Shown here: positions 6-17,875 of the stretch, in pieces
How the letters are laid out: each line of letters begins with the position of its first letter
Numbering within the stretch: the stretch's first letter is position 1
Assembly (NCBI GenBank): GCA_030524435.1
Contig: JAUNGS010000014.1
Location: 1-42,651 of the forward strand
Source of the DNA: Eubacterium sp.
Lineage (GTDB): Bacteria > Bacillota > Clostridia > Eubacteriales > Eubacteriaceae
DNA length: 42,651 nt
Direction of reading: 5' to 3'
Program-made: the position numbers and the translations under genes
Notes under the pieces: generated by a model
What the model was told of the DNA's origin: nothing
The model's input: only the letters and a program-made list of their open reading frames with translations
Database searches by the model: none

Positions 6-2231
6 ATGGTCTTTCCAGAGACTGGCAAGGATCACGGTGATTTTATCAGGGGCTTTATGAAGACCATGTCCGAGGACTCGGGGGTTTTTAAAATGGCAAA
101 GGCCTTGGAGGAGATGGTGGCGGGCTGGGGACAGCGTCAGCTGCTTGTGGAGCCCTGCTATCTGATTCTCTCCTGGAGGCCGCCGGCGGCGCTTTCCGGG
201 GAGCAGCGGGCCGTGGCGGCCTTCGAGAAGCTGGGCCAGGAGGAGACCAAGGCCAGGGCCTTTTTGGGGCGATGCGGCAACGCCATGGTGGTCAGGGAGG
301 ACACAGCGCATTTTCTGTACAGCCTGTACTACCGATTTTTCAACAGAAAAAGCAGCCAGGAGGAGTCCTTTGAAAAAAGGCTGAAGCGGGTGTACACCGA
401 TTTTTCTGAGCTTTGGGGAAGGGAGACAGACAAAACCCCCAGGGCCCACCAGCTTTTGGCGCCCCGGGGCATCGACATGACCCATCGGCGCTTTATGGTC
501 ATGGACGGGATGTACTACAGCTTTTTTATCTTTACGGCCTACCCCAGGAGCGTCCCCGCCGGATGGCTCAGTCCGTTTTTGGGTCTGGGGGACGGCTATG
601 ACGTGGATATCTTTTTGAGACGGGAGGATCGCTCGGCCTTTTTGACGGGACTGTCCAGACAGCTGGGGAAAAAGGAGGGGGACATCGGCGCCATGCCGGA
701 AAACAGCGTCAGCACCCAGGAGGCCTTGGAGATTTATCGCTGGAATCAGGAGCTGCAGCGCCGCCTTGTCTCCGGGGATGAGGCCTTCTACTTCACCGTG
801 ATGGTCACGGTGTTTTCAAAATCCCGGGGAACCCTTGAGAAGCGCCGGGGTCAGCTCAGGGATTACGCCCGGGGCCGGGGCTTTGACGGCGTTTTTATCT
901 CGGATTACAGGGAGGCTCTGGCCTCGGCGGCCCTGACGGGACAGATGGCCCCCAGGCTTTTTAAGCGCTACAGGCGCAACGTGCTGACCGACGGCGCCGC
1001 GGCCCTCTACCCGCTGACGACGGCGGTGGCACAAAACAGCCGGGGCATTGCCCTGGGGATGAACCGGGACAACCATACGCCGGTGAGCATCGATTTTTTC
1101 GAGCCCATTGCCAATATGCTGATCTTCGGGGCCACGGGCCACGGCAAAAGCTATCTGGCCATGCTGATCTCGGCGCGGCTCAGAATTACAGGAACCCAGG
1201 TTTTTGTGGTGGCGCCGGCCAAGGGCTTCGAGTACAAGGCCCTCTGCGACGCCCTGGAGGGAAGCTTTATCACCCTGGGGGGCGCCGGCGGCGCTGGCAT
1301 CAATATCATGGAAATACGCCCGATGGTTTCGCCCAAAACGGCGGATGAGGCGACGGCGAGCTGGGGCGGACGGGATTTGCTGTCGGAGAAGATTCAGCAG
1401 CTTTTGGAGTTTTTCAAGGTGATTGTGCCGGAAATCGACAAGCGCAGCCTTAGACGGCTGGATCCTGTCCTTAAGGAGGTCTACGGCAGCCTCGGCATTA
1501 CCCACGACAACACCTCGATTTATGTGGCGGGGAGGGCGGCGTCGGGTCTAAAAAAAATGCCTGTCATCGGAGATATCTGCGGGGTCATCGCCCGGGAGGA
1601 ATACCGGGAGCTGCACTGGCTTTTGCCGGAGCTGGAGCGCTTTGTCTCGGGCTCCTTGGGCTGCTTTAACCGGGAGACCAATGTGGATTTAGACAATAAA
1701 TACTGCGTCTTGGACTTGTCGGCCCTGATGCCCGAGGTCTTTCCCCTGGGCCTTTTTATTGTGGAGAGCTACCTCTGGAACGTGCTGCGGCAAAACAGAA
1801 CCGATAAAAAGGCGGTGATCTTCGAGGAGATGTGGAAGATGCTGGAGCTTCCCCAGAGCGAGGCGGTGATTAGGGAGATTTATAAAACCATCCGGGGCTA
1901 CAGGGGCATCGCCCTGGGGGTGACCCAGGAGCTGGGGGATATCTTAAAGCGGGATTCGGGGAAGACGATTTTTGATCAATCCCGGATCAAGGCGGTGATG
2001 TATATGGAGAGGGAGGGCGCCCGGGAAATCGCCGAGGCCTTAGAGCTTTCGGACTACCAGTACCACAGCATCACCCACGCCCAGACGGGGGAGGCGCTGA
2101 TCTGCACCAAGGAGAAGCATTACAGAACTAAAATTGTGGCGACCGCCGAGGAGGCCTATCTCTTTGAAACCGACGGCAACGCCCTGGAAAGGAGGAAGCA
2201 ATTTGAAGCAAAGAGCCAAAGGGCAGTTTAA
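6..2231 (+). CDS. VirB4/TraE-type conjugation or T4SS ATPase (5' end probably outside window)
   Basis: This is a cytoplasmic ATPase that energises a type IV secretion or conjugation channel at the membrane. Walker A is GATGHGKS at residues 375-382 of the frame read from 6, and Walker B is AVIFEE at 603-608. The N-terminal 370 residues have the low-conservation character of the VirB4 N-domain. The frame is already open upstream of the ATG at 6, and no ribosome binding site is visible, so the true start probably lies before the window. The stop overlaps the next gene by 29 bases, which implies translational coupling to the VirD4-type gene. The VirB4-VirD4 order suggests the core of a Gram-positive T4SS. 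Family assignment is firm. Whether it serves DNA transfer or protein export cannot be told from this gene. Confidence 0.88.
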   Translation: MVFPETGKDHGDFIRGFMKTMSEDSGVFKMAKALEEMVAGWGQRQLLVEPCYLILSWRPPAALSGEQRAVAAFEKLGQEETKARAFLGRCGNAMVVREDTAHFLYSLYYRFFNRKSSQEESFEKRLKRVYTDFSELWGRETDKTPRAHQLLAPRGIDMTHRRFMVMDGMYYSFFIFTAYPRSVPAGWLSPFLGLGDGYDVDIFLRREDRSAFLTGLSRQLGKKEGDIGAMPENSVSTQEALEIYRWNQELQRRLVSGDEAFYFTVMVTVFSKSRGTLEKRRGQLRDYARGRGFDGVFISDYREALASAALTGQMAPRLFKRYRRNVLTDGAAALYPLTTAVAQNSRGIALGMNRDNHTPVSIDFFEPIANMLIFGATGHGKSYLAMLISARLRITGTQVFVVAPAKGFEYKALCDALEGSFITLGGAGGAGINIMEIRPMVSPKTADEATASWGGRDLLSEKIQQLLEFFKVIVPEIDKRSLRRLDPVLKEVYGSLGITHDNTSIYVAGRAASGLKKMPVIGDICGVIAREEYRELHWLLPELERFVSGSLGCFNRETNVDLDNKYCVLDLSALMPEVFPLGLFIVESYLWNVLRQNRTDKKAVIFEEMWKMLELPQSEAVIREIYKTIRGYRGIALGVTQELGDILKRDSGKTIFDQSRIKAVMYMEREGAREIAEALELSDYQYHSITHAQTGEALICTKEKHYRTKIVATAEEAYLFETDGNALERRKQFEAKSQRAV

Positions 2232-4128
2232 GGTGTTTTTGAGGGAGTGGGCCGTCTCTGTGGGCGGCGGACGGATTGCGGCGGGGGCCGTCTTCAGCTT
2301 TCTGCTCTGTCTCTATCTGGCGGGGATGACCAGTCAGTTTTTTTCCAGGGAAATTATCACAGGCAGGCGGCAGCTGGTCTTTTCCCCTGTCAGGGTGATT
2401 TTGGAGGGCGCGCTTTCCGGGGAGTGCGTCGCCGCAGCCCTGATGATTTTTGGGGCGGCGCTGCTGGCGGTTTTTCTGATGCTGCTGCAGCTTTTCGGGG
2501 AGGAGCTCAAGGATCCCCTGGGGCGCTTTAAAATGGCGGAGGACAGGGGTCTGGGGTTGGCGGGGTTCTGTAAATGTCCCCAGGCGCTGCCCGGCCTGGA
2601 GGTGACGGCCTACAGAGAGGCTGAGGGATTTATTCTGGGCAGGTACGAGGGCCGTTATCTGAGTTTTAATCCCCAGGGGGCGGCGGATAACCGCAATATC
2701 ATTGTGTACGGCGCCGCCGGATCTGGAAAAACCCGGGGCTTCATTTTGCCCAACGTGCGTCAAATCATCAAAAGGTGGGAGTCGGGGGTTATCTTGGACA
2801 CCAAGGGGATGATTTATAAACATACCCAGGCCCTGGCCCGGGAGAAAAACTACGATGTCTACCTTTTTGATTTAAAAAATCCCGGAGCAGGAAACGGCTG
2901 GCACTGTCTTAAAGACATCGGTCAGGATCTGACGGCGGCTCACCAGGCGGCCAGCGTGATTGTGGAAAATACCCTGGGCCCCGGCGAAAAAAACGCGGCC
3001 AAATTTTGGGTGGACGGCGAGAAAAATTTGCTGGTGGCCCTGATTCTATTGGTGAATTGGGAGGCCGAGACCGCCCGGAAAGGAGGCCGGCGGAAAAACA
3101 GCGCCGCTGATTCCCTCGGGGAAGAAGGCACTCTGGGCACGATGGGGCGGCTCTATGCCCTTTTGACGGCCGAGGGCGGCGCAGCCGCTCTGGGGAAGGC
3201 CTTTGAGGCAATCAGGGTGCAGGCGGGGGATGAGGCGCCGGCCTGGCGGGCTTGGCGGGCCTTTTCGGCCAACGCCAAGGAGGAGGTGCAAGGCGGCTTC
3301 ATCGGAGGCCTGGCGGTGCGTCTGAGGCTCTTTCAGTCGCCGGAGATCTGCGAGGCCTTCGGCAAGGATGAGATTCGTCTTAAGCAGCTGGGCCGGCGAA
3401 GGACGCTGATTTACGTAAATCTCGATGACAGCGACGCTTCCAGAAGCTTTCTGGCGGCCTTTTTCCTGACCCGGCTCTTTTCGGTGCTCTACGCCGACGC
3501 CGACGCCAGGCCGGAGCAGCGCTGCCCGGTGGCCGTCAACGTGGTCTGTGACGAGTTTTCCAATCTGGGAAAAATTCCCGATTTCGATAAAAAAATCGCC
3601 ACCTGCCGGAGCCGGGGAATCGGGGTGTGCATCGTGGTTCAGACCCTGGGCGCCCTGATGGAAATGTACCCGGGGCGGGCCTGGGAGCAGATCGTCGGCA
3701 ATTGCGCCGTCGAGCTTTTGATGAAGGCCGGGGATAAAACCACGGCGGAGCACTTTGAGTGGATGGCGGGACAGACGGCTGTCGTCGACGAGGAGACCAG
3801 CGTTTTCAAACGGGGGCTTTTTGAAGGGACAGATTTGACGGAGGGCTATCGCGAGAGCAGAGCTGAGCGGGAGCGGCCGCTTCTGCGCTCTGACGAGATC
3901 CGAAGGCTTCCGTCGGACAAGGTGCTGGCGGTGGTGGACAACGCCGAGGTGATTTTGGCGGAGAAAATAGATATTGCAGAGCTGCCGGAGGCAGGTGCTT
4001 GTGGCAGGGGGGCGGCGAAGAGGGCGCCCTCCTTCGAGCTGCCCCGGGGCTATTTTGAAAATTTATACAAAGGAGACGAAGAAAAAAATGCTGGAAATGT
4101 TAAAGCTATGGAGAGAGGGCGCCGGTGA
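2203..4128 (+). CDS. VirD4/TraG-type coupling ATPase
   Basis: This is a membrane-anchored coupling protein that selects substrates and hands them to the T4SS channel. Two N-terminal membrane segments lie at about residues 25-42 and 73-98. Walker A GAAGSGKT is at 170-177 and Walker B VVCDEF at 447-452. The C-terminal half has the TraG-like QTLGALMEMYPG region. The frame is open from 2134, but I chose the TTG at 2203 because AAAGGAGGAA sits just upstream (2188-2197) and nothing comparable precedes earlier codons. With that start the protein is 641 residues, normal for the family. It overlaps the VirB4 gene by 29 bases and the next gene by 41, so the three are probably co-translated. Confidence 0.88.
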   Translation: MKQRAKGQFKVFLREWAVSVGGGRIAAGAVFSFLLCLYLAGMTSQFFSREIITGRRQLVFSPVRVILEGALSGECVAAALMIFGAALLAVFLMLLQLFGEELKDPLGRFKMAEDRGLGLAGFCKCPQALPGLEVTAYREAEGFILGRYEGRYLSFNPQGAADNRNIIVYGAAGSGKTRGFILPNVRQIIKRWESGVILDTKGMIYKHTQALAREKNYDVYLFDLKNPGAGNGWHCLKDIGQDLTAAHQAASVIVENTLGPGEKNAAKFWVDGEKNLLVALILLVNWEAETARKGGRRKNSAADSLGEEGTLGTMGRLYALLTAEGGAAALGKAFEAIRVQAGDEAPAWRAWRAFSANAKEEVQGGFIGGLAVRLRLFQSPEICEAFGKDEIRLKQLGRRRTLIYVNLDDSDASRSFLAAFFLTRLFSVLYADADARPEQRCPVAVNVVCDEFSNLGKIPDFDKKIATCRSRGIGVCIVVQTLGALMEMYPGRAWEQIVGNCAVELLMKAGDKTTAEHFEWMAGQTAVVDEETSVFKRGLFEGTDLTEGYRESRAERERPLLRSDEIRRLPSDKVLAVVDNAEVILAEKIDIAELPEAGACGRGAAKRAPSFELPRGYFENLYKGDEEKNAGNVKAMERGRR

Positions 4129-5107
4129 GGCGGAAATCAAGGGGCAGCCTGGCCCAGGAAAGCGGATTGCCGCCATCGACGCCTCGGATATTGAGACCGA
4201 AGAGCGGGTGCGCCAGAGGGAGTTCATCGACCTCCGGGAGCTGGAGAGCTCCGGCCGGGTTACCGAGGGCCGGGTGTACAGCCTTTTTACCATGGAGGAT
4301 ACCCAGGCGGATATTTTAGGGGTCTTTGCCCAGCTCCAGTACGGCAGATCCCGGTTTCAGGTGAGGATTGCCGCCGAGGACTTCTGTCCCTGGCTGAAGA
4401 CGCCGGGGAAAAATCAGCTGATGAAAAACGGAGAGACCCCCAGACAATTTGCCAGGCGCTATATCAGAAATCATATCTCGGCGACGATTCACTACTGCGT
4501 CAAGCAGATCGTCCCGGGGGACGGCGGGGAGATGGTAATTTACGCCTCGAGGCTGGAGGCCATGGGGCGCCTTGCCCGCCAGTATTATTTCAACCCCGAT
4601 CCCCAGGGCTGTATTCAGGTGGGGGACGAGGTGCTGGGGCGCATCGTCTCCACCCACACCCACAGCCTGATGGTGGAGGTGGCCGGGGTGGAGACCTACA
4701 TCGAGGCCGGTGAGGTGTCCTGGGGCTATCATCTGGACTACCGCCGGGAGGAAAAATATCAGGTGGGTCAAAAACTCTGGGTGAAGGTTCTGGAGCTGGA
4801 GCGAAACGAGCGGGACAAAAGGGTGACCCATCTCAGGGTTTCGGGGCGCCAGGCTCAGATCAATCCCAAAATCAGTGAAATTGAAAATTTCCGGGTTGAC
4901 GGCGAGTACCCGGCCACGGTGGTAAGGCATCTGGAGACCGGCAGCATCGTCGCCTTTGAGGACAGCGAGATGGACGGCTTTGTGACCTTCTCCACCCAAT
5001 TTGAACGGCCGGCGGTGGGGCAGCGGGTGCTGGTGCGGCTGCTCAGGGTGGACAGGAAGCATTTAAAGCTCTACGGCTTTGTGACCACCAAGATGGGGAT
5101 GCGCTGA
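4088..5107 (+). CDS. Protein with S1-like RNA/DNA-binding domains in the T4SS operon
   Basis: This 339-residue cytoplasmic protein has no membrane segment. A segment at about residues 175-255 (VGDEVLGRIV, then VGQKLWVKVLELER) has the spacing of an S1 OB-fold. A second S1-like stretch lies at about 268-335 (VDGEYPATVV, then VGQRVLVRLLRVD). The N-terminal 170 residues are not recognised. I chose the ATG at 4088 over upstream codons in the same frame (open from 3974) because AAAGGAG sits at 4069-4075. The gene overlaps virD4 by 41 bases and is followed 13 bases later by ssb, so nucleic-acid binding during transfer is a reasonable guess. The S1 call rests on pattern recognition. Remote alternatives are other OB-fold proteins. 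Confidence 0.65.
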   Translation: MLEMLKLWREGAGEAEIKGQPGPGKRIAAIDASDIETEERVRQREFIDLRELESSGRVTEGRVYSLFTMEDTQADILGVFAQLQYGRSRFQVRIAAEDFCPWLKTPGKNQLMKNGETPRQFARRYIRNHISATIHYCVKQIVPGDGGEMVIYASRLEAMGRLARQYYFNPDPQGCIQVGDEVLGRIVSTHTHSLMVEVAGVETYIEAGEVSWGYHLDYRREEKYQVGQKLWVKVLELERNERDKRVTHLRVSGRQAQINPKISEIENFRVDGEYPATVVRHLETGSIVAFEDSEMDGFVTFSTQFERPAVGQRVLVRLLRVDRKHLKLYGFVTTKMGMR

Positions 5108-5120
5108 AAGGAGAAAAATA

Positions 5121-5528
5121 ATGAATAAAATTGTGCTGATTGGCAGAATGGTAAGAGATCCCGAGCTGAGGACGACCACCACGGGCAAGTCCATGACCCG
5201 CTTTGGGGTGGCGGTGGAGCGCAAATACAAGCAGGAGGGGCAGCCCACGGCGGATTTCATCGACGTGGTGGCCTGGGGGCGTCTGGCGGAGATCATCGTT
5301 CAGTATATGAAAAAGGGCAGGCGCATTGCCATCAACGGCAGACTGCAAACCGGCTCCTACACGGCCAAGGATGGCAGCAAGCGCTATGTGACGGACGTGA
5401 TCCTCGAGGAATTTGATTTCATCGAAAGCGCCCGGGAGAGACAGCTGCAGGAGACGGCCCGGGAGGTGTCCCTGGAGAGCACGCCGGAGTTTCATCTCAT
5501 TGCCGAGGATGAGGAGGTGCCCTTTTGA
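5121..5528 (+). CDS. ssb: Single-stranded DNA-binding protein, operon-borne copy
   Basis: This OB-fold protein of 135 residues coats single-stranded DNA. It opens with the typical MNKIVLIGRMVRDPELR and carries the FIDVVAWGRLAE and GRRIAINGRLQT motifs. It ends in an acidic tip EDEEVPF, the partner-docking tail of bacterial SSBs. AAAGGAG at 5107-5113 precedes the ATG. It sits between an S1-like protein and a small membrane protein, not next to rpsF and rpsR, so it is probably an accessory SSB serving the T4SS element. Plasmids and conjugative elements often carry such copies. Its stop overlaps the next start by four bases. Confidence 0.92.
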   Translation: MNKIVLIGRMVRDPELRTTTTGKSMTRFGVAVERKYKQEGQPTADFIDVVAWGRLAEIIVQYMKKGRRIAINGRLQTGSYTAKDGSKRYVTDVILEEFDFIESARERQLQETAREVSLESTPEFHLIAEDEEVPF

Positions 5529-6025
5529 GCTGGTACAGTGAGAAAAAACGGAGGGCTCAGGATAAAAGCGGCGCCCGGCGGGAGATTTTTCAGTCTGTGG
5601 CGGTGATGCTTATTTTGCTGGCGGCGGCCCTTGCCCTGGGAGACCCGCCCCTGAGTATCTTGAAGGAGCAGCGGCAGACCGTCTCTGAGCCTGCCCCCAA
5701 GGCGGACCAAAAAGAGAGCCCCGGGGAGGCGGAGACAGAGACGGCCTCCGGTGAAAATGAGCCGGAGGAAACCGGGGGAGAGGCAGCTTCTGAGGCGCAG
5801 CCCGTCCAGGATACCTTCTTCCAGGAAACGGAGGATTTTTTTGAAAATTACCCGGAGGATACGCCGGAGGTCTCGGCTGGGGAGGCCGTTTCAGAAAAGC
5901 CAAGCCCGGCAGAAGGCCAAAACAGTCCGGAGGGCTACCAAGCGTGGTCCGACGGCGACGGCACCATCTGGAATAACGGAGATTTGAGTCAGGACGACTA
6001 CGACTGGGGAGAGATTGGATGGTAA
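5525..6025 (+). CDS. Small single-pass membrane protein with acidic Pro/Glu-rich outer domain
   Basis: This 166-residue protein starts at a TTG that overlaps the ssb stop (TTGA), implying translational coupling. A charged N-terminus (SEKKRRAQDK) is followed by one hydrophobic segment at about residues 22-38 (VAVMLILLAAALALG). The remaining 125 residues are low complexity, rich in Glu, Pro, Ser and Gly, ending in a Trp/Asp-rich tail (GDGTIWNNGD). This is the layout of a membrane protein with a disordered extracellular stalk. No family is recognised. Its place between ssb and the large surface protein suggests a cell-envelope component of the transfer apparatus. The gene itself is supported by its tight packing. 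Confidence 0.7.
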   Translation: MSWYSEKKRRAQDKSGARREIFQSVAVMLILLAAALALGDPPLSILKEQRQTVSEPAPKADQKESPGEAETETASGENEPEETGGEAASEAQPVQDTFFQETEDFFENYPEDTPEVSAGEAVSEKPSPAEGQNSPEGYQAWSDGDGTIWNNGDLSQDDYDWGEIGW

Positions 6026-6034
6026 AGCGCAAAG

Positions 6035-6049
6035 GCCCTGGGACAGGGC
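6035..6049 (+). other. Small intercistronic hairpin
   Basis: GCCCT and AGGGC form a 5-bp stem around a 5-base loop in the 101-base gap before the surface adhesin. It is not followed by a T-run, so it is not a convincing terminator. The rest of the gap is AT-rich and could hold a promoter, but I cannot pick out a good one. Confidence 0.3.
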
Positions 6050-6126: not shown

Positions 6127-9100
6127 ATGAAATTACTAAAGAAAAGGAGCAGCGCCATTGCCGCTGTGATTTTGGCGGCGATGCTGCTGCTCCAGGGACT
6201 GGGACAGCAGACAGCGGCGGTTCTGGCCCAGGAGCTTTCAGAGCCCATAGGTAATCTGGCAGACTACGCCACGGTGGCGGTGGGCGAGACCGAGGAGGGC
6301 TGGATCATTAAATCCTCGGTGAATCCCCAGGCGAAAAAAAGCCGCGCCATTGGGAATTCGGGGGTAAAGGTGTCGAAGGTCTACGGCGGCTACACCTCCT
6401 ACACGGAGATTCTGTCTGTGGTTTCGGACGAGGGTAAAACCAGCATCGCCTACTGCGTGCAGCCGGAGCTGGAGGTGCCCAACAACACAGATTACCGTCA
6501 GCAGATTTTTAACAATGACCAGCTGCGGACGGTGCTGTACTACGGCTACGGCGGCAACGACAGCGCAGAGTTCATGGCCCTGGAGGGCGGCAATGTCAAC
6601 AACGCCTACATGGACACCTGGATGGCAGTGCGGGCGGCCTATAACGGAGGCGCCTATCAGGCGGCCGTGAACGATCCGATGGTGCAGTGGCTTTTGAATC
6701 ACGCCAGCGCACCGGCCACCCGCTTTGAGGTGGGAGGCAGTCTCCAGACGGCGGGCTGGAATGCCGATGCAATGCGCCAGGAGACAGGCTGGTACACCAC
6801 CTCCGGCGGCGGAAGCTTCAGCTTGAATTTAGAGGGCACGGGTCTCTCGGCGGAGCTCTCCGACGGCAGAGTTTTAACGGGCAATACCGCAGACATTGCC
6901 GCGGGCACCTCCTTCAGACTGCTGGCGGGGCCGGATAAGGCGGGGGAGGTCAGCCTGGACATTCCCACCACGGCCACGGGCTACGCCGGCATGATCTTTG
7001 TGCCCACGGTGGATGCCAGCAGGCAGAGCGTTGTGGCGGGCTACGGCGGCGACCCGGCGAGTCCGGCCAGAATACAGGCCCAGTTTTCAAGGCGGGAGGA
7101 GAAATCCCAGGTTGTAAAGCTGGATGTTGAAACCGGAGAGACCTCCCAGGGCGACGCCAGCCTCGACGGCGCTGTCTTTGGGCTGTACGCCCAAAACGGC
7201 GACAAATTGGCCGAGGGCACGGTGTCAAAGGGGATCGTGGAATTTCCGGCCCAGCTCTGCGGCGATTACTATATCCAGGAAATTGCCGCCGGCACGGGCT
7301 ATCTTTTGGATGATACCAAGTACCCGCTGCACCTCAATGATCCGGGAACAACAGCGGTTGTGGAGGCCAAGAATCGTGTGAAGAAGGGTGCGGTGAAGCT
7401 TAAAAAGCTGGCGGTGCCCAACGATGAGCAGAACGAGGACAGCCCGGGTCTCTTAAATCCTTTGGCGGGGGCCGAGTTTACCCTGTCCCTGAAAGCAGAT
7501 CCCCAGACGCAGTACATCAAGGTCACCGACGAGGCGGGAGAGCTGACCTTTGGGGATATTCCCTACGGTCATTACACCCTGAAGGAGACAAAAACACCGG
7601 CGGGCTACATCGGTGCGGCCATTGTCGAGGAGGTGTTTGTGTCCGAGGACGGACAGGTGCTGGAATACTTTTTCGGCAACAGAGATTTTTACGCAGATCT
7701 GACGGTGGTCAAAAAGGACAGTGAGGACGGTAAGCCCGTGGCCCTCAAGGGGGCGCGCTTTAAGGTCTACGACGTGGCGGAGGGGGACTTCGTCACCCAG
7801 TATCCGGCCTCCCATCTGTTTATGCCGGTGAGGGAATGGACCACCGACAGCCAGGGAAGGCTGGGCCTGGACAAGCCCTTGCCTGCGGGCCATTATATTT
7901 TGGTCGAAACCCAGGCCCCTGCGGGCTATCTGGCCTACCAGGGCGGCGAGGAATCGGTGAGCTTTGAGGTGGATGGAGAAAGGTATACGGGGATTCCCTT
8001 TGTCTTAAACGAGGGCAGCTGTACGGTTGTTGAGACCTCGGAAAAATCCTACTACGCCTACGAGCAGTCTCTGGCCAACGCACCGGCCAAGGGGCGTATC
8101 CGGGTGGAAAAAACCGGTGAAATGCCCGACGGCGTCACCAGGGAGGAGACGGAATACGGGACCCTGACCACCTTTAATTTTGCCCAGAAGGCCCTGGCTG
8201 GCGTGACCTTTGAGGTTTACGCCGCCGAGGATATTTTAGGGGCCTCCGACGGCGAGGCGCCCCGGGTGTACCACCACAGCGGGGAGAAGGTGGCGGAAAT
8301 CACCACCGACGCCGAGGGCATTGCTGAAACAGGAGATCTCTACCTCGGAAAATACCGAGTGGTGGAAAAGTCGGCCCCCGCGGGCTTCGTTTTGGACAGC
8401 CGAGCCCAGGACGTAGAGCTGACCTATGCCGGGGAGCAGGTGATGCCCGAGGATAACGTGGTCACCCTGAGCCTTGAAAATGCAAAGCAGCAGGCGGTTT
8501 TCACGCTGAAGAAGAACGAGGAGGCCCTGGAGGATTACACCGTCGGCGAGGATGGAAGCCTGAGGCTGATCAAAAAGCAGCAGCCGGCCAATGGCATCAC
8601 CTTTGGCGTGTTCACCGCAGCGCCCATGGCCGATGGCCGCGGCGGCACGGTGCCCGCCGACAGCCTGGTGAGCGTCAAGACGGTGGCGGACGGCGAGACG
8701 GCGACGACAGAAAACTTCCCGGCGGGAGATTATTACTACAAGGAGCTTGAAACCAGGGGAGATCTGGTGCTGGATACCAATAAATATCCGATCGCCTACC
8801 GCCCCGAGGGCAACGCTTCGGTGATTGTGCTCAGAGCCAACGACGGAAAGGCCGTCGTCAACAGTCTTTTCACGAAGGAATACACCCTGTTAAAGACAGA
8901 ACGCCGGGGCGGAAAGCCCTTGGCCGGTGCTGAAATTGGCTTTTACGACGCCGATCAGCAGCTTATCTGCACCCAGGTCACCGACGATGAGGGGAAAATT
9001 GTGCTGCCGGAGCTTGCGGCGGGCCAGTATTATTACAGAGAGCTCAAGGCGCCCCAGGGCTACGTCAGAGACGAGACCCTCTACAGCTTTGAGATTGTTC

Positions 9101-10014: not shown

Positions 10015-10061
10015 GGAGGCTGAACCTCAATTTTTAATTTGGAACAGCATCGATGATGACA

Positions 10062-10085
10062 GCCGGGGATTTTAGAATCCCCGGC
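10062..10085 (+). other. Strong intercistronic stem-loop between adhesin and kinase sub-operon
   Basis: A perfect 10-bp GC-rich stem (GCCGGGGATT / AATCCCCGGC) closes a 4-base loop in the 95-base gap after the adhesin gene. No T-run follows, so it is not a canonical intrinsic terminator. It could protect the 3' end of the adhesin mRNA, act as a processing site or lower read-through into the downstream genes. Confidence 0.7.
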
Positions 10086-10109
10086 CAATTACCAAGGAAG
10101 GAAGACAAT

Positions 10110-10673
10110 ATGAAAATAAAACAAAAGGAAAGGCCACATCGCCCTGGGATGATTGCCCTGAAGCTTAAACAAGAGCTTTTGGCCACGGGAAGCCTGGCAG
10201 AGATGTGCGCCCTGGCCCAGAGAGAAATCAAAGATCCTGACTGCAGACAGACCCTCTGCTTTGCGGCGGGGATCTCTGTGTACGATACCCTGGCGGCGGA
10301 GGGCGGGAAGGAAAAGCAGCGTTTTTTGGCAAAGCTCTGCGCCCTGGCCGGAGAAAACAGCTTCTATTGCCTGATGTGCTACAGCCGGGCGGCGGAGCTC
10401 TGGATGGAGGAGGGGCGGGGGGAGCTGATTCCGGGAATTTTATCCTTGGCAGAGGGGTTGATGGCACAGGAGGCAATCCAGGGATGCCCGGCACTCTGTC
10501 AGGAAATGGCCAGGCTTTGGGAGCTCTGCGCCCTGGCGGCCTCCGGGGAGGAAAGGGCTTTGTGTCTCAATAGAGCTCTGGAGCTTTTGAGACCGGCGGC
10601 AAGGGTGCTCCCGGCAGCTTCTGGATGGATTTCGGCCCTGGAAATCAAGCTGGCGGAGGTGGAGGCGCTGTGA
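10110..10673 (+). CDS. Unrecognised helical cytoplasmic protein preceding the kinase
   Basis: This 187-residue protein has no signal peptide or membrane segment. It is almost entirely Ala/Leu/Glu-rich and looks alpha-helical, with several Cys residues (for example FYCLMCYS and GCPALC) and TPR-like helix periodicity. I chose the ATG at 10110 because AAGGAAGGAAG lies just upstream. Codons further upstream in the frame (from 10053) would run through the stem-loop. Its end overlaps the kinase start by four bases (GTGA), so the two are translationally coupled and may be partners, for example as a scaffold or adaptor. I do not recognise the family. Confidence 0.7.
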   Translation: MKIKQKERPHRPGMIALKLKQELLATGSLAEMCALAQREIKDPDCRQTLCFAAGISVYDTLAAEGGKEKQRFLAKLCALAGENSFYCLMCYSRAAELWMEEGRGELIPGILSLAEGLMAQEAIQGCPALCQEMARLWELCALAASGEERALCLNRALELLRPAARVLPAASGWISALEIKLAEVEAL

Positions 10674-12517
10674 AAAATCTTTCCGGGCGGGTGCTGGCGA
10701 ACCGCTTTTATCTGGGAGAGCGCCTGGGCCAGGGCGGCAGCGGGGATGTCTATCTGGCCGAGGACAGAGCCTGCGGCCTTCCAAAGCGCTGGGTGGTCAA
10801 GTGGGTTGACCGCAGACAAAGCGGCCCCTGGTTTGAGTATTATAAAAACGAGGTGAAGGTTTTGGCCGCGGTGAGTCATCCCAATATGACGACGATCCAC
10901 TATTTCGGCGAGGAGGCGGAAGGCTTTTACATGGTTCTTGATTACATCGAGGGAGAGAACCTAAAGGGGCTTTTAGAGCGGGCAGGGCCCGTGGATGAAA
11001 AAAGGGCCCTCAATTGGATGAAAACCATCTGTGCCGTGCTGGCCTGCCTGCACGAGGCCAGGGGCAGGCCCATCATCTACTGCGATCTCAATCCCGGGAA
11101 TATCATGGTTTCCAGGGAGGATGTGGTCTATCTTATGGACTACGGCATTGCCCGGGAAATGGCCGCGGAGGCGGCGCCAGCCCTGGGCACCCGGGGCTTT
11201 GCGGCGCCGGAGCAGTACGGGGACGGCTCGGGGATGGTCGATGAGCGCACGGATATTTACGGCGTGGGGGCGACCCTGTTCAACCTTTTGACGGCGGATT
11301 TGCCCCTGGAGACGATTCATCCGAGAAGCATTGCGCCCACGGTTTCTGTGGAGATGGATGCCCTGGTGGCAAAATGTCTGTGTAAAAATCCAGAGGGACG
11401 CTACCAGAGCATGGCCCAGCTGAGGCAGGCCCTGGAAAGCATAGGCGCCAGGGACGCCCTGCTGGAAAAAAGACGCCTGACGATTCTGATGTCTGTGCTG
11501 CTGGCGGCGGCTTTCTGCCTGATCAGCATGCTGGGGGCTCTGGCTTTAATGCGCAGCGATGCCCAGAGAACCGGAAAGGCCTGGGAGCTGTCTGGAGATG
11601 AGCGCTGGGCCAGACAGGACGACATCGGCGCCAGAACGGACTATCTCCGGGGGGTGGCTGCCGATCCTGAAAACCAGGCGCTTTATGAAAAAATCTACAG
11701 GGCGATGGCCAGCCAGGAAGCGGCAAAGATTTGCGAGGTCTTTAGAAATAAGACGGAAATCAGGTATCTTGACGCCGGGCTGGCCCTAAATCTGGCCATG
11801 CAGGGCCTGGAGGCCGGGCAGGAGCCCTGGCTGAGCTATGGTGAAGCGCTCTTGGAGGCCGCAGAAAAGAAGGGCAGTGGGGAGCAGCGCGCCCTGGCGG
11901 GGGCATTAAAGCCCCTGCTTCAGGGAGAAGATGGAAGGGAGATGGCGTCAGCCCTCGGGGCGTTAAAGAATTTTTGCGAAGCGCAGGGGGAGGCACAGCC
12001 AGAGCTGCGCTATTTGCTCTTGACGCTGTTTGAAAGGCAGGGGCTTATGGGAGAGGAGTTCGATCGGATTGCCGAAGGGCTTGAGGCTTACGCAGAGCAA
12101 AACGGGGATTTTTATGGGATCCCCAAAATATACAAGCTGTTGGCCAGCCATTATTACAGACAGGCCCAGGAAGAGACAGACCCCCTTGGGATCAGGTGGG
12201 CCCTGGAAAAGGCCCAGGCCTGCCTCGAGGCTCTGGGAGAGGTCGCCTCCGACAAGGAGACCTGGATTTTAAAGGGGCGGGTTCAGCTGGCCCTGGGAGA
12301 TACAGAGAAGGCCCAGGCCTTTTTTGAGCGGGCACGGCAGCAAAATCCGCAGGACCCCCAGATTTTAATTGAGCTGACCCGCCTTTGTCTGGGCAGGGAT
12401 AAAAAAGCGGCGATGACTTATTACAATCAGCTTCTGGCCCTCAAGGAGGGGGAGATCTCGAAAAATCTTCTTAGTCAGATCAACGCCCTGGAAGAGGCCC
12501 TGGCGATGGAGGAATAA
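10670..12517 (+). CDS. Membrane Ser/Thr protein kinase with TPR-like extracytoplasmic region
   Basis: This 615-residue PknB-type kinase phosphorylates proteins on Ser/Thr at the membrane. Seen motifs are the glycine loop GQGGSGDV (20-27), the ATP-anchoring Lys44 in VVKWVD, the catalytic loop YCDLNPGN (137-144, an HRD variant with Asp139), DYG in place of DFG (157-159), and the APEQYG activation segment. One membrane helix lies at about 272-295. The remaining 320 residues should be outside and look like TPR/helical repeats, without PASTA domains. The start is GTG at 10670 with GGAGGTGGAGG upstream, and it overlaps the preceding gene. The same operon holds an FHA protein and a PP2C phosphatase, giving a full phosphorylation circuit. 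Confidence 0.88.
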   Translation: MKNLSGRVLANRFYLGERLGQGGSGDVYLAEDRACGLPKRWVVKWVDRRQSGPWFEYYKNEVKVLAAVSHPNMTTIHYFGEEAEGFYMVLDYIEGENLKGLLERAGPVDEKRALNWMKTICAVLACLHEARGRPIIYCDLNPGNIMVSREDVVYLMDYGIAREMAAEAAPALGTRGFAAPEQYGDGSGMVDERTDIYGVGATLFNLLTADLPLETIHPRSIAPTVSVEMDALVAKCLCKNPEGRYQSMAQLRQALESIGARDALLEKRRLTILMSVLLAAAFCLISMLGALALMRSDAQRTGKAWELSGDERWARQDDIGARTDYLRGVAADPENQALYEKIYRAMASQEAAKICEVFRNKTEIRYLDAGLALNLAMQGLEAGQEPWLSYGEALLEAAEKKGSGEQRALAGALKPLLQGEDGREMASALGALKNFCEAQGEAQPELRYLLLTLFERQGLMGEEFDRIAEGLEAYAEQNGDFYGIPKIYKLLASHYYRQAQEETDPLGIRWALEKAQACLEALGEVASDKETWILKGRVQLALGDTEKAQAFFERARQQNPQDPQILIELTRLCLGRDKKAAMTYYNQLLALKEGEISKNLLSQINALEEALAMEE

Positions 12518-12745
12518 ATGCGGCTGTGGTTTTATTTGTCGAGCTTTGGCCTGGGATTTTTTGCAGCCCTGGCAGTATTTTTGGAATGCCTCTGGGGAAG
12601 CCTGCGCAAGGCCTGTAAAAAGCGCTGCATAAGAGGTGTAAAAAAGAAAGACGAGGCGCAGAAAACGACGCTTCTCAAAGCTTCTGAGGAAGCTTTTAAA
12701 ACAGAAAAATTAGATTTGGGAGAGAATATTGAGGATGAAAAATAG
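12518..12745 (+). CDS. Small membrane protein
   Basis: This 75-residue protein begins directly after the kinase stop (TAAATG) with GGAGGAA upstream. It has one hydrophobic N-terminal segment (about residues 3-22, FYLSSFGLGFFAALAVFLE) and a basic, then acidic, cytoplasmic tail (KKRCIRGVKKKDE). It overlaps the next gene by 11 bases. Its placement within the block argues that it is real and co-translated. No family is recognised. The charged tail next to a kinase could be a docking site, which is a guess. Confidence 0.6.
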   Translation: MRLWFYLSSFGLGFFAALAVFLECLWGSLRKACKKRCIRGVKKKDEAQKTTLLKASEEAFKTEKLDLGENIEDEK

Positions 12746-15074
12746 ACAATGGATGGCAATGCTGATGCTTTTGCTGGCTGCCCTGGGCCTGGCTTTGGGT
12801 CTGGAGGGGGCGGCTATGGCCCAGGAGAAAACGAGACCTCCCCAGGTCCTTCTGCGCCTCTATTCGGATAATGACGCCCAGGAGGCCTTTATCCTCGGGG
12901 ACACCCTGACCCTGGAGGTCAGCGCCGCCGAGGAGCTGCCTGTCCTCGAGGGAAGCATCGCGGGAAAAGCGGTGGATTTTGAGGAAGCGATAGAGGAAGG
13001 CCTTTATTTTTACAGGGCTTCTCTCAAGGCCGAGGCAGAGGACTTTGTCGAGGGAGAGAGGGTCACCGCCCAGGTAAAGCTGGGGGAAGGCGAGGACGCC
13101 GAGACACTGGAGGTCCAGGGTCCTGTATTCTATGCGCCCTTGGCATTGGAGACCCTGGATTGGACGACGGATAATAAAAACCCCGAATACATCAAAAATG
13201 GGGAGTATCTCAAGCTTTCCTTTAAAACCTCCCACCAGGCCCAGGCTCAGGTGTTGGCGGCGGGGCAGGCGGTTTCGGTGGAGAGCGAGGACGGCCTGAG
13301 CTTTGGGGGAGGTATTTTGGCCGACAATCTGGTGGCGGATCAGACAACAATAGACTGCAGTTTGACCCTCACCGACCCCTACGGCAATCCGCCCCTGAGT
13401 GTCGATCTGAAAACGGCGACCTACCTGGCGCCGCTGACGCTGACCCAGCTCTGTCAGCGCAGTGATAATTCGGAGGATCCGGCCCAATTTTTAAAGGCGG
13501 GGGATCATTTTTTCCTTGAAGGAGCCCTAAACCATCCTGCGGCGCTGCGGCTGACGGCCGGGGAGGAGGCCGTGGCTGAGACGTCGGCGGAATACAGCTT
13601 CGAGCTCGGCCTTCCCGTGGAGGCGCTGAAGCTTCGGGATCAGGAAAGCCCGGCCTTTGAGCTGTCCCTGTGGGATGCGGCGGGCAATACGCTCTCGGGG
13701 ATAGATGGCGGACAATGTGAAAACCAGCTGCGCTACTACGCCCCCATCGAGGCCTATGCCCGTCACGACGCCCAGGATTATGTCACCCAGGGCTATATTA
13801 AAAACGGCATGACCTTAAACACAGAAATTTTTGCCAATCACCAGGTGGCGGTGACGACGGTCAGCTATGGCCCGAGGCCGGCGGAAATTTCTGAAAATTC
13901 TGAAGGGCAGGTGACGGCAAGGCTTTCCATCGCCGCGGGGGAGACGCTTTTGCCCGAGGGCAGTCTGAGCTTTGAGGCAAGGCTTGAAGATCCGGCGGGC
14001 AACATCTTTTGGATATCCGAGGATACGGGGTGGATCTACGACAGAACGCCGCCGGTGGGAAGGATGGTGCCGGATCAGCCGGGGTTTTTCAACAGCGATC
14101 TCAATTTTAAGCTGTATTTTCAGGATGAAAATTTGGAGACCTCGGGGATTCGTCTGGCTGTCAATGGCAGGGCGGCGGCGCTAAGCCTTCAAAAAGATCC
14201 GGCGGGGATAGCCGGGGCCTTCGCCTTGGACAAGGAGGGCAGCTACACCTGCGAGGCCCTGGCGGTGGATAAGGCGGGCAATACCTCCGAGACCTGCAGC
14301 CTGAGGGTGATCATCGATAAGACCAGTCCTAAGATAACCCTGATTGATCTTAAGACCGAGGAAGCGCCGGTGTACAAGGCGGGCTTTGTTTTGTCAGAGC
14401 ATTTTCAAATTCAGGAGACATACCTCAAGTCGGTGGAGTGTACCCTGACGGATCTCTGGGGCTTTGGCCGCACACGGCTCTGGTCTGTGGATCAGCCCAT
14501 TGTGGAGGATGGTCTCAAAACGGCGGAGATTTTCTCCGTGGATATGGCGGAAAACCGATCCGAAAAAATCCGCTGTCAGTTTTATATCGACGGGACGCCG
14601 CCGGCGGTGCTGATCAGGGATAAAAAGACAGGCCGGCTTTTGGAAAACGGCGAAGGCATTGCCGCGGGAACGACCTTAGAAATCAGTCTGGATAAAAAAT
14701 GGATCGGCAGTGAGCTGCCGGATTATATGACCCAAATCGAGGGTTATGTCTGCGGCAGGGCCCTGGAAATGACCTGGGACAGTCCCCGGAGGGCGCCGGT
14801 GACCATTGAGACAGGCGGTCAGGGGGAGGTGGCCCTCAACATCACTGCCGCCGATGAAGTGGGCAACGTCTCTGAGACACAGCTGGTCTTTCCCACCCTC
14901 AGTCCGGAGGCTGGGGCGGCCGCAGACAGCTTTTCTGAAAATTTAGAGCCGGAAGAGACCGTTTCCAGGGTGCCGGAGATCTTTTTGACAGCGGTGGTGG
15001 CCGCTGCCCTCTGTGCTGCGGCGGGCATTCTGTGGAGAAAATACGCCGACAGCAAAAGACGGAGGCAGGGTTAA
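12735..15074 (+). CDS. Exported, membrane-anchored protein with repeated beta-rich (Ig-like) modules
   Basis: This 779-residue protein has a signal peptide at about 1-31 (hydrophobic AMLMLLLAALGLALGL, then AMAQ) and a C-terminal membrane helix (IFLTAVVAAALCAAAGIL) with a basic tail (RKYADSKRRRQG). Between them lie tandem beta-rich modules. A linker of the form YAPL..L...DN..P.YIKNG recurs near residues 131, 229 and 333, and later segments carry DKAGNTSET and EVGNVSETQ, typical of bacterial Ig-like folds. I chose the ATG at 12735. The TTG at 12729 in the same frame is possible. It overlaps the small membrane protein by 11 bases, and the FHA gene follows with no gap. Probably a surface or channel-associated structural component. 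Confidence 0.75.
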   Translation: MKNRQWMAMLMLLLAALGLALGLEGAAMAQEKTRPPQVLLRLYSDNDAQEAFILGDTLTLEVSAAEELPVLEGSIAGKAVDFEEAIEEGLYFYRASLKAEAEDFVEGERVTAQVKLGEGEDAETLEVQGPVFYAPLALETLDWTTDNKNPEYIKNGEYLKLSFKTSHQAQAQVLAAGQAVSVESEDGLSFGGGILADNLVADQTTIDCSLTLTDPYGNPPLSVDLKTATYLAPLTLTQLCQRSDNSEDPAQFLKAGDHFFLEGALNHPAALRLTAGEEAVAETSAEYSFELGLPVEALKLRDQESPAFELSLWDAAGNTLSGIDGGQCENQLRYYAPIEAYARHDAQDYVTQGYIKNGMTLNTEIFANHQVAVTTVSYGPRPAEISENSEGQVTARLSIAAGETLLPEGSLSFEARLEDPAGNIFWISEDTGWIYDRTPPVGRMVPDQPGFFNSDLNFKLYFQDENLETSGIRLAVNGRAAALSLQKDPAGIAGAFALDKEGSYTCEALAVDKAGNTSETCSLRVIIDKTSPKITLIDLKTEEAPVYKAGFVLSEHFQIQETYLKSVECTLTDLWGFGRTRLWSVDQPIVEDGLKTAEIFSVDMAENRSEKIRCQFYIDGTPPAVLIRDKKTGRLLENGEGIAAGTTLEISLDKKWIGSELPDYMTQIEGYVCGRALEMTWDSPRRAPVTIETGGQGEVALNITAADEVGNVSETQLVFPTLSPEAGAAADSFSENLEPEETVSRVPEIFLTAVVAAALCAAAGILWRKYADSKRRRQG

Positions 15075-15422
15075 ATGGATACGATTATTTCGCCAGTGGA
15101 TATTTTGGGTGGTCTGCTCTCGGAGGAAGGACTGGTTCTATCGGGAAGTCCGGGGAATTTCAGTCTTGCGCCGGGCATTTTGGGAAGTGACGGCGCCGCA
15201 TCGGCGATACACATCGATTCGCCGGTGGTCAGCCGCAGACATTGTCTTGTTATGCAGCGGGGCGGGCGCTATTTTTTAAGGGATTTGGAAACGACCAACG
15301 GCACCTGGGTCAACGGCCATCGCCTTGTGGGGGATCGGCAGGTGGAAATTGGAGCCGGGGATCGCATAAGAATTGCCAATTTGGATTTTGTGGTTAAAAA
15401 GGAGGATGAAGCAGATGCGTGA
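15075..15422 (+). CDS. FHA-domain phosphothreonine-binding protein
   Basis: This 115-residue protein consists of little more than a forkhead-associated domain, which reads phosphothreonine. Visible core motifs are GILGSD, SPVVSRRHC and TTNGTWVNGH, followed by GDRIRIANLDFVV. There is no membrane segment. The ATG follows the previous stop directly (TAAATG), and its end overlaps the PP2C gene by eight bases. With the kinase upstream and phosphatase downstream it completes a writer-reader-eraser set, as in the threonine phosphorylation pathway of type VI secretion (PpkA, Fha1, PppA). The domain assignment is firm. Its binding partner is unknown, but the kinase or a secretion component is likely. 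Confidence 0.9.
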   Translation: MDTIISPVDILGGLLSEEGLVLSGSPGNFSLAPGILGSDGAASAIHIDSPVVSRRHCLVMQRGGRYFLRDLETTNGTWVNGHRLVGDRQVEIGAGDRIRIANLDFVVKKEDEADA

Positions 15423-16086
15423 GCTGAGGTGGCAGGCGGCCTCAAAAAAGGCTGTCTGCCACAGAAAAAATCAGGATGCCTGGTATTGCGAGGTATCAAA
15501 GCTTCGGCGGGACCGGGGGATTTTTGTGGTTGCCGACGGTGTCGGCAGTCTGGATGCCCCGGAGATAGCCAGCCGGATGGCCGTCTCCGGGGTCAGAAGC
15601 TGGTGGCGGGAGACCGAGGACATCGGTATAGAAGGGCTAAAAGCCCTGAGAAAGGCACTGGGACATATTGATCAAAGCATCAGAGACTATGGCAGTCAGA
15701 AGGGCCTGTGCCTGGCGACGACTTTGGCGGTGCTTTTGTTGGACGGTGATCAGGGGGGAATCCTCCAGATTGGGGATTCAAAAATCCTTCGCCAAAGATC
15801 CCGGCGGACCGAGGTTTTGACCATCGATCATCTTTTGGAGCGGGAGGGACTGCTGATCTCCTGTCTCGGCAATGCGCGGATGGGCTTCGACGTCATGGAG
15901 CGTTACTTTGAGGTCAGGGTCAAGGACCGCTTTTTCATCGGCAGCGACGGCGTTTTTTCCAGAAAAAGGCTTTTGGCCCACTATGCCTTTGGGCAGGAGG
16001 AGGCTTATCTTAAGAAGCTTAGGGAAGCTGGAGAAGCCGACGATTTGACGGCCATCGGCGTGGAGGTCAGAAATGTGCCGGTGTAA
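15415..16086 (+). CDS. PP2C-type protein phosphatase
   Basis: This 223-residue metal-dependent Ser/Thr phosphatase should reverse the action of the operon's kinase. Seen motifs are VADGVGSLDAPEIAS (metal-binding DGxG), CLATTLAVLLLDGD, QIGDSKI, GSDGVFS and ADDLTAIGVEV, in the family order. It has no membrane segment, so it is cytoplasmic. I chose the ATG at 15415 because AAAAAGGAGG lies at 15396-15405. The frame is open from 15373, but the extra N-terminus would be hydrophobic sequence translated over the FHA gene. It overlaps the FHA gene by eight bases and the next gene by 14. Confidence 0.88.
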   Translation: MRELRWQAASKKAVCHRKNQDAWYCEVSKLRRDRGIFVVADGVGSLDAPEIASRMAVSGVRSWWRETEDIGIEGLKALRKALGHIDQSIRDYGSQKGLCLATTLAVLLLDGDQGGILQIGDSKILRQRSRRTEVLTIDHLLEREGLLISCLGNARMGFDVMERYFEVRVKDRFFIGSDGVFSRKRLLAHYAFGQEEAYLKKLREAGEADDLTAIGVEVRNVPV

Positions 16087-16495
16087 AAAAATGGGGACAG
16101 CGCTGCTTTGGATGGTGATTTTTTTCGGTCTGTGCCTCTTCAGGGCACCGGTGCTGGCAAACAGCCTTACCCTGAGGCTTCCGACGGCCCTGGAGGGCTG
16201 TGTCGTGCTGCTGAAATCCCCAGAGGGTGACGAGGTGGGCCGGGGCGTTTTGGATGCCCGGGGGGAGGCTGTGGTGACGCCGGAGGGCGGTGAATACGCC
16301 GTTGTAGAGATCTCAAGGCAGCAGGCCCAGGGGATCGGTGCAGCCGGCAGCCATTCTCTGCCTTTGCGCCTGAAGGAAATCCTAGTGATTGGCGGCCTGA
16401 CCTCGGGGGCAACAGCCCTGGGGATGGGCTGGCATTTCAGACGAAAATACCGCGAGGCCTTTGGGCTGATTTACGATGCCGACATCGACGATTAG
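16073..16495 (+). CDS. Small exported membrane protein
   Basis: This 140-residue protein has a signal-peptide-like N-terminus (LLWMVIFFGLCLF, then VLANS) and a second hydrophobic segment near the C-terminus (about residues 105-123, ILVIGGLTSGATALGMGW). A basic, then acidic, tail ends it (RRKYREAFG, DADIDD). The 75 residues between look like one small beta domain outside the membrane. Ribosome binding site GGAGGT is at 16062-16067, within the phosphatase gene, which it overlaps by 14 bases. No family is recognised. It is probably an envelope component of the same apparatus. Confidence 0.65.
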   Translation: MCRCKKMGTALLWMVIFFGLCLFRAPVLANSLTLRLPTALEGCVVLLKSPEGDEVGRGVLDARGEAVVTPEGGEYAVVEISRQQAQGIGAAGSHSLPLRLKEILVIGGLTSGATALGMGWHFRRKYREAFGLIYDADIDD

Positions 16496-16505
16496 GGGTA
16501 AAAAA

Positions 16506-17279
16506 ATGAAAAAAATGATTGTGCTGTGGCTGTTGGCGGCAGCTGTGCTTTTGACGGGCTGCGGTTCCTGGAGGGGTGACTCTGGCGAGGGTATGGCCCT
16601 GGATGAGCTCACCGATGGATTTTACGTTAAGTCTGGGAATTTGTTCTATCCCCTGGAGGCGGAGGGCAAAACCTACGACGGCGATATGGTTAAGCTGACC
16701 AATGCGGGAAAGTCGCAGATGATCTGGCTCTGGGAGGGGGGAAGCGCTATTCCAGAATACAAGGAGGGGGCAGCGCTGGTCTTAAAGCAGCATCAGGCCC
16801 TGCCGGAGCAGGTGTTCTTTCAGAAAATGGAGGACAAGGGCGTTACCCTGGGGATGATCTTGGCCCAGACGGCCACCCTCGATGTCTATGGGCTGTCGGG
16901 GGACGACAGACGCCGCCTCTGTCCGGGGAGCTCCGCCGAGGAGGTGCTGGCCTCGGCGGCCGAAAGCTACCAGGATCTGAGAATCTCGGAGATCGGCGGC
17001 GTCAAGGTCAGCCAGGAGCATCTCAGCGACATCAACACCTTTGAGGGCCTGACGCCGGGGGAGGACTACGCCGTCGGCATTTACGAGGGCTCGGTTTATC
17101 AGGAGGTTTATATGCGGGCAGATACCCGGGTGTTCAAAAGCGTCCCGGAGGTGCGCTGTATCGCAGACCAGTACCGTTACACCCGGGAGGGCTATGCCGA
17201 GGTTGTGCTGCCTGAGGAGCTGGAGCCAGGCTATTATTACATCGACGACGCAGGGCTTTTGCTGGTGACAAAAAACTGA
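16506..17279 (+). CDS. Lipoprotein of unknown function
   Basis: This 257-residue protein has a classical type II signal peptide: MKKMIVLWLLAAAVLLTGCG, with the lipobox LTGC placing Cys19 at the lipidated N-terminus. The mature part is mixed alpha/beta, with YYYIDDAGLLLVTKN at the end. No catalytic motif is visible. The start at ATG 16506 follows AGGGGT (16494-16499), and the signal sequence begins there. The frame is open earlier (16476), but that would prepend polar residues. It lies 10 bases after the previous gene and so belongs to the same unit. An outer-face component or substrate-binding role for the T4SS-linked complex is possible. Confidence 0.75.
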   Translation: MKKMIVLWLLAAAVLLTGCGSWRGDSGEGMALDELTDGFYVKSGNLFYPLEAEGKTYDGDMVKLTNAGKSQMIWLWEGGSAIPEYKEGAALVLKQHQALPEQVFFQKMEDKGVTLGMILAQTATLDVYGLSGDDRRRLCPGSSAEEVLASAAESYQDLRISEIGGVKVSQEHLSDINTFEGLTPGEDYAVGIYEGSVYQEVYMRADTRVFKSVPEVRCIADQYRYTREGYAEVVLPEELEPGYYYIDDAGLLLVTKN

Positions 17280-17344
17280 GAAAACAAAAAACAAGCCCAG
17301 TGCGGGTTAGTTCCAGAGAATTTTAAGAACAATTGGAGAAAAGA

Positions 17345-17875
17345 ATGAAAAGAAAAATACAGATCAAACCCTATTTTAAGGGCCCGGGCCCCTATCGCCT
17401 GCGCCTGAGGCCTGTGTACAGAAAAAGCCACGGCATCATCGGCCTGTACTGTGTCCACAAGGACTGCGGCTACAATTCCGCAAGCCGAAAAAGGGTGGAT
17501 GAGGGCGAGGAGGATGCCGTTGAATTTGGCTTTTGCCTGAATACCTGGAAAAATATGTATGTGGACGAGCATGCCCGCTGCTGCTCCAGGGTGTACAAGG
17601 GCGCTCAAAATTATATGAGAAAGCTGTTTTTGCAGATGTTTCAGGTTGGCGACTGGATTGAGGTGCCGGTGACCCTGCTGGACGGCAGGATCTTAGATCC
17701 CAGGGAAAGGCACCGGGTGAGGACAGTTCAGATTGTTCAGATTCTGCCCTATACCTGCGTGGTCTCCGACACCGTGGGAAAGCATTGCTTTACCAGAAGC
17801 CTTAGCTTCAGCGATTTGATTGGCGGCGAGATGGCGCGCCGGGAGCGGGTGGTAATGGCCCAGCTTGCGGAGTAA
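17345..17875 (+). CDS. Unrecognised cytoplasmic protein, last gene of the block
   Basis: This 176-residue basic protein has no signal peptide or membrane helix. Its N-terminal half contains several Cys and His residues (YCVHKDCGYN, FCLNTW, HARCCSRVY), which could bind metal. The C-terminal half has VGDWIEVPVTLLDGRILD followed by a VQIVQILPYTCVVSD strand, reminiscent of a small beta-barrel. I chose the ATG at 17345 after GGAGAA, although a TTG at 17333 is also in frame. It is separated from the lipoprotein by 65 bases and ends exactly where the convergent trmB ends. The function is unknown. Confidence 0.65.
   Translation: MKRKIQIKPYFKGPGPYRLRLRPVYRKSHGIIGLYCVHKDCGYNSASRKRVDEGEEDAVEFGFCLNTWKNMYVDEHARCCSRVYKGAQNYMRKLFLQMFQVGDWIEVPVTLLDGRILDPRERHRVRTVQIVQILPYTCVVSDTVGKHCFTRSLSFSDLIGGEMARRERVVMAQLAE

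Follow-up and report, generated by a model that had tools for sequence, protein, structure and literature searches.

The window analyzed here (42,651 bp, the whole stretch of DNA under study) is one entire contig from an incomplete Eubacterium genome. It opens with a run of 15 genes, all on the plus strand and spanning positions 6 to 17875, with intergenic gaps of −41 to +101 bases that are mostly overlaps. The sequence-only reading described this run as a compact same-direction block of VirB4, VirD4, SSB, adhesin, membrane kinase, FHA, and PP2C genes, and each of these was confirmed by Pfam or NCBIfam matches. The genes are as follows.

6..2231, plus strand: VirB4-type T4SS ATPase with a cut N terminus (Pfam TraG P-loop, 6e-17; 28 to 34% identity to VirB4 from other Clostridia)
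2203..4128, plus strand: VirD4-type coupling protein, CD1115 family (PF02534, 3e-48; NF045973, 314 bits)
4088..5107, plus strand: S1-domain protein (Pfam S1; homologues are kept behind VirD4 in this T4SS clade)
5121..5528, plus strand: single-stranded DNA-binding protein, SSB (Pfam SSB, 4e-32)
5525..6025, plus strand: 166-aa membrane protein with an acidic tail (no Pfam match)
6127..10014, plus strand: TED/SpaA fibrillar adhesin, likely a mating adhesin (TED_2, 4e-11, and eight SpaA domains)
10110..10673, plus strand: p206, a 187-aa helical TPR-like protein (all-helical AF2 model, pLDDT 86; positional equivalent in Eubacterium ICEs)
10667..12517, plus strand: Ser/Thr kinase with one TM segment and an extracellular TPR domain (PF00069, 4e-37; full-length homologues in Eubacterium ICEs)
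12518..12745, plus strand: p75, a 75-aa single-TM protein with a KTTLLKA tail, likely a phospho-bait (from its position and Tx[VILM]L motif)
12729..15074, plus strand: exported Ig-domain protein, 781 aa, with a C-terminal TM segment (Big_13, 2.5e-7; 30% identical to a 1,232-aa ICE protein)
15075..15422, plus strand: FHA protein (FHA, 7e-18)
15412..16086, plus strand: PP2C-type phosphatase (PP2C_2, 6e-13; motifs DGVG, GDS, SDG, and DD present)
16073..16495, plus strand: 140-aa exported/TM protein without an ICE counterpart (from its translation; no Pfam match)
16509..17279, plus strand: lipoprotein without an ICE counterpart (LLTGCG lipobox in the translation; no Pfam match)
17345..17875, plus strand: 180-aa protein that abuts minus-strand trmB (from its translation and gene spacing)

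The VirB4 frame is open at the contig start, and homologues have about 80 further N-terminal residues. Because the window is a whole contig that begins inside VirB4, the N terminus of this protein is cut, and the remaining T4SS genes therefore lie off this contig. For VirD4, a start at 2203 or 2233 is likelier than one at 2134. The genes from p206 to p267 form a single tight run, judged by their spacing. The adhesin has a sortase-type anchor, as first described, although the Cna-B label has to be corrected to TED plus a SpaA/prealbumin-like stalk with an xPxTG-type anchor (NPGTG), and p75 and the Ig-domain protein are two further members of the circuit beside the kinase, the FHA protein, and the PP2C (the latter three are referred to here as the trio).

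The block extends to about 17.9 kb, where its last gene converges on a minus-strand trmB-like gene (17876 to 18541; tRNA m7G methyltransferase, named from sequence motifs) that likely marks the edge of the acquired segment. Beyond it, positions 18667 to 42236 are a methylated-amine utilization region coding for a corrinoid protein, two GntR regulators, MFS and BCCT-like transporters, and an MttB-family methyltransferase without an in-frame TAG, behind which there are more same-strand genes. An Rfam search of the window gave no match.

The kinases of the window and of the related ICEs described below all keep the catalytic Asp, the metal-binding Asn, and the DFG/DYG Asp. The activity of the window kinase and FHA protein is nonetheless uncertain, since the kinase has DLNPGN instead of DLKPxN, with Asn at the lysine position, and the FHA protein has Ser for the GR arginine while keeping SxxH and N. 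Pfam identifies no PASTA domain in the kinase; its ectodomain is instead modeled as a TPR superhelix (pLDDT 80), with TPR proteins heading the list of PDB matches.

T4SS lineage and recurrence of the block

The window VirD4 belongs to the CD1115 family, with 314 bits against the NF045973 cut-off of 250, and the VirB4, truncated as it is by the contig start, scores 177 bits against the cut-off of 325 for the CD1110 model NF045971. VirB4 proteins of this clade, 28 to 34% identical to that of the window, occur in some 17 genomes from other genera of Clostridia, whose loci retain VirB4, DUF5697, DUF6100, VirD4, and the S1 protein and in many cases also encode SpaA-type surface proteins. The CD1115/CD1110-type conjugation systems of Clostridia, for example that of Vescimonas plasmid pMM35_02, thus share with the window the order VirB4, VirD4, S1 protein, and SpaA adhesins or pilins, but they have DUF5697 and DUF6100 between VirB4 and VirD4, where the window has neither, and those examined lack the kinase, FHA protein, and PP2C, all of which the window has. 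FHA or PP2C genes were found on the contig of a window-clade VirB4 in none of the 17 genomes from other genera, and relatives of the trio were absent from the retrieved T4SS neighborhoods and from three plasmids of Vescimonas, Subdoligranulum, and Butyrivibrio; because some of these contigs are short, a copy farther away from a window-clade VirB4 could escape notice. No relatives were found with the VirD4 query against genome contigs or the VirB4 query against viral contigs. The trio had been proposed to be linked to this particular T4SS, and this does not hold for its relatives, which are mostly without it; the trio is therefore no part of this T4SS, and we rejected it as a T4SS core component.

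Full-length relatives of the kinase and the Ig protein are present only in three congeneric genomes, G002, G003, and G004 (Eubacterium callanderi FD). The Ig protein is absent from 391 genomes of the class outside Eubacterium and was also not found in plasmids or viral contigs. In G002 and G004 the order is adhesin, a second TED protein, a pilin, a class-C-like sortase, p165/p168, kinase, small TM protein, Ig protein, FHA, and PP2C. The kinase-to-PP2C order is the same in G003, where the stretch up to the kinase consists of N bases and the adhesin part is unreadable; an 11,243-aa kinase open reading frame in this genome is an artifact of these bases (95% X) and was discarded. The p165/p168 proteins align weakly with p206 and occupy the same position upstream of the kinase.

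These copies lie in ICEs together with genes for a relaxase, an SNF2/methylase giant, topoisomerase III, SSB, VirD4, TrbL, an M23/SLT peptidase, VirB4, and a tyrosine integrase. In G003, a near-identical, att-like 28-base repeat (two 13-base blocks) brackets about 112 kb and is the sole mark of a left end for this ICE, whose integrase end coincides with the loss of synteny with genome G001. We also note a second mobile element lying inside the part of the E. callanderi FD ICE that holds the helicase/methylase gene (G004:C9, positions ∼54100 to 93900); it has its own CD1115-type VirD4 and VirB4 and a gene whose beginning resembles that of TetM-family ribosomal protection proteins.

The VirB4 and VirD4 of these ICEs are only ∼19% identical to those of the window. 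The adhesins show the reverse: the window adhesin is 40% identical over 1,319 aa to that of the E. callanderi-type ICEs (51% in the TED part) and at most 28% identical to adhesins from the window's own T4SS clade. The window operon is thus a mosaic, with the transfer ATPases of one descent and the adhesin and phospho-circuit of another. Between the two versions of the block the kinase, Ig protein, and PP2C are 26 to 30% identical, yet gene order is unchanged, which argues that the block is a functional unit. All four copies, from four genomes of one genus of which three are close relatives, are beside T4SS genes, and none is found elsewhere in the sampled class. As the block recurs with another VirB4/VirD4 lineage, it belongs with the adhesin and with conjugative elements rather than with one T4SS. 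The suggested connection between trio and T4SS therefore fails for a single T4SS lineage, whose relatives lack the trio, and is supported for conjugative elements (4/4 Eubacterium loci, two T4SS lineages). Of the S1-SSB-adhesin core whose adjacency to the trio was to be checked, the adhesin is the constant partner and S1 and SSB are not.

A phospho-module with several partners

The same part types are known from the T7SSd and T7SSe secretion systems, whose phospho-module comprises the TsxD kinase, the TsxF phosphatase, the TsxJ FHA protein, the TsxI Ig protein, and the single-TM proteins TsxH and TsxK (Garrett et al. 2024, PMC11217815). The window has the adjacent TM kinase, PPM phosphatase, Ig-domain TM protein, and single-TM protein that characterize these subtypes. 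Its kinase has its best plasmid match in Agathobacter rectalis, at a locus of Ig protein, PP2C, kinase, single-TM protein, and DUF6382-FHA genes that adjoins EssC, EsaB, WXG100, and toxin genes, an arrangement described for T7SSe by Garrett et al. 2024 (PMC11217815). Other clostridial loci place FHA, PP2C, kinase, single-TM, and Ig protein genes beside EssC (L142), LXG toxins, or a prepilin peptidase, and these differing neighbors show that the five parts are a module able to combine with more than one machine. The kinase tree does not place the ICE kinases inside the T7SS-module clade, but their long branches make this placement tentative, and the tree does not prove their descent from the module. 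We rejected the possibility that the block is a degenerate T7SS, because genomes with the block lack EssC and WXG100 throughout: searched genome-wide, G003 and G004 have no WXG100 protein above the cut-off and no full EssC, so that the module there must serve something else.

In several clostridial genomes (L122, L127-L128, L131, and L146) there is more than one FHA/PP2C/kinase cluster, and in some of these clusters the FHA or the PP2C gene is present twice. In several Clostridia (L147-L154), TM-less kinases close to the T7SS-module kinase are encoded beside ABC transporter-like genes for multi-TM proteins and ATPases with AAGKTTL[LM]RAF.

For the T7SS subtypes, the single-TM proteins had been left without an assigned role. 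All 13 single-TM module proteins analyzed here have Tx[VILM]L in the cytosolic tail, with 35 motifs against 2.05 expected from shuffles, and control patterns with Ser, Asn, or Lys in place of Thr are not enriched in the tails. The pattern was picked after the tails had been inspected, and these controls consequently outweigh the P value; p75 of the window has one motif only (KTTLLKA), with a shuffle P of 0.036 by itself. Several FHA proteins have the same motif beside their own FHA domain. The residue at pThr+3 is often the one that FHA domains recognize, and the tails accordingly resemble kinase targets and FHA docks arranged in tandem, which on their sequence is the likely role of the Tx[VILM]L tails. 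Across Clostridia, single-TM proteins with repeated [DE]xTx[VLM]L tails (L138-L146 and L113), with up to several motifs per tail, are encoded beside kinase/FHA/PP2C modules, and this family is likely the phosphothreonine bait of T7SSe-type systems.

A candidate contact-sensing switch for conjugation

Our preferred reading, which we consider evenly poised between right and wrong, is that positions 6127 to 16086 are a transferable cassette of conjugative elements, in which a TED adhesin is joined to a transmembrane, contact-sensing phosphothreonine switch that would license mating-pair formation or the transfer channel. It builds on the gene content and order, the conservation of the block in two diverged copies with two T4SS lineages, the motif enrichment in the adaptor family, and the modeled TPR fold of the ectodomain; phosphorylation, docking, sensing, and a T4SS or mating output would operate as follows. 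The outer TPR domain of the kinase and the outer Ig protein would sense contact or envelope state, and the kinase would phosphorylate p75, the single-TM adaptor, on its TTxL tail. The phosphorylated tail could then be bound by the cytosolic FHA protein, and the PP2C would reset it. The docked complex would license mating-pair formation or the transfer channel of the element's own T4SS, whichever its lineage, and would affect mating-pair formation by way of either the adhesin or the channel. Assembly or firing of the apparatus may, as the sequence-only reading proposed, be controlled by surface-sensed phosphorylation, although the adhesin, rather than VirB4 or VirD4, may be the real client of the FHA protein. 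The more specific proposal, that conjugative elements have adopted a T7SSd/e-type phosphothreonine switch, which on contact acts directly as the gate of a Gram-positive T4SS or of its mating-pair formation, is a tentative one that we hold to be possible but not probable.

That the switch serves the adhesin and pilus surface layer only, in display, anchoring, or pilus assembly, with the T4SS as a fellow passenger, is unlikely, though it would account for the adhesin being the constant neighbor while the T4SS lineage changes and for the second TED protein, pilin, and class-C-like sortase between adhesin and kinase in G002 and G004. It fits poorly with the location of every copy (4/4) beside T4SS genes and of none elsewhere in the sampled class, and with the role in mating of adhesins of this type: a TED adhesin is required for efficient conjugation of pLS20 (PMC8092201). 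A lower probability still attaches to the block being accessory cargo unrelated to conjugation, such as an envelope-stress or surface-competition response riding on ICEs; most T4SS of the window lineage do lack the block, and in the ICEs it adjoins typical accessory genes (Fic-like and HipA-like), but it is continuous in operon-like fashion with the window T4SS genes and its order with the adhesin is conserved in deeply diverged copies. It is very improbable that the kinase is mainly structural and builds a channel without signaling, as EssB/YukC of T7SSb or TraF of pIP501 would suggest, TraF being an essential Gram-positive T4SS protein and an EssB-like pseudokinase (PMC13037476) of similar bitopic topology, since the mutated catalytic residues that would mark such a pseudokinase are absent: the window and ICE kinases keep the catalytic and metal-binding Asp and Asn and are accompanied by PP2C and TxxL bait tails.

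If this direct-gating proposal is correct, it would add a form of control not previously reported for conjugation in Gram-positive bacteria. A portable module that is found with T7SS in part of the Clostridia and with T4SS elements in Eubacterium would also imply that unrelated secretion machines make use of one and the same contact-sensing switch, and the Tx[VILM]L bait tail offers a direct phosphosite candidate for the whole family, the T7SS subtypes included.

Comparison with known systems

In type VI secretion, threonine phosphorylation by the PpkA kinase, with the Fha1 FHA protein and the PppA PP2C, is a post-translational switch. The window resembles this pathway in that a kinase, an FHA reader, and a PP2C eraser adjoin a secretion machine. 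It differs in being Gram positive, in lacking T6SS genes (none of the structural genes is among the scanned window genes, and the FHA match to the TagH model is far below the cut-off), and in adding the Ig protein and the single-TM bait. The analogy drawn at first with PpkA/Fha1/PppA is thus reasonable, but by part list the nearest described relative is the T7SSd/e phospho-module. The PASTA kinase PrkC/Stk1 with PrpC is likewise a TM Ser/Thr kinase with a PP2C partner, in contrast to which the window kinase has a TPR ectodomain and no PASTA; the genome from which the window derives has a separate PrkC/Stk1-like kinase/PP2C pair elsewhere (G000:C4).

It had also been stated that no Gram-positive T4SS with such a trio is known, and our search of a limited literature collection agrees, having found no kinase-FHA-PP2C circuit for Gram-positive conjugation; closest to it come the modules of T7SSd/e and the pIP501 protein TraF, and the study of TraF reports no FHA fold among the pIP501 Tra proteins (PMC13037476). 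A review on the control of Gram-positive conjugation does not mention Ser/Thr phosphorylation or FHA control. The TIE/TED mating adhesin of pLS20 has, as in the window, a TED followed by a SpaA/Cna-like stalk and is encoded in a conjugation operon, but the part of that report used here describes no kinase circuit alongside it (PMC8092201), whereas the window has one. The T7SSd/e module shares with the window all five part types, namely, a TM kinase with a helical ectodomain, a cytosolic PPM phosphatase, an FHA protein, an Ig surface TM protein, and a single-TM protein, and both have the Tx[VILM]L motif found here in a short cytosolic tail. In T7SSd/e, however, the FHA protein (TseJ) carries DUF6382, as do the A. 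rectalis and L138 homologues, and the module accompanies EssC/TsxC, WXG100, and EsaB; the window FHA protein is without DUF6382, and its module, with none of these T7SS proteins, is instead beside a T4SS on a conjugative element.
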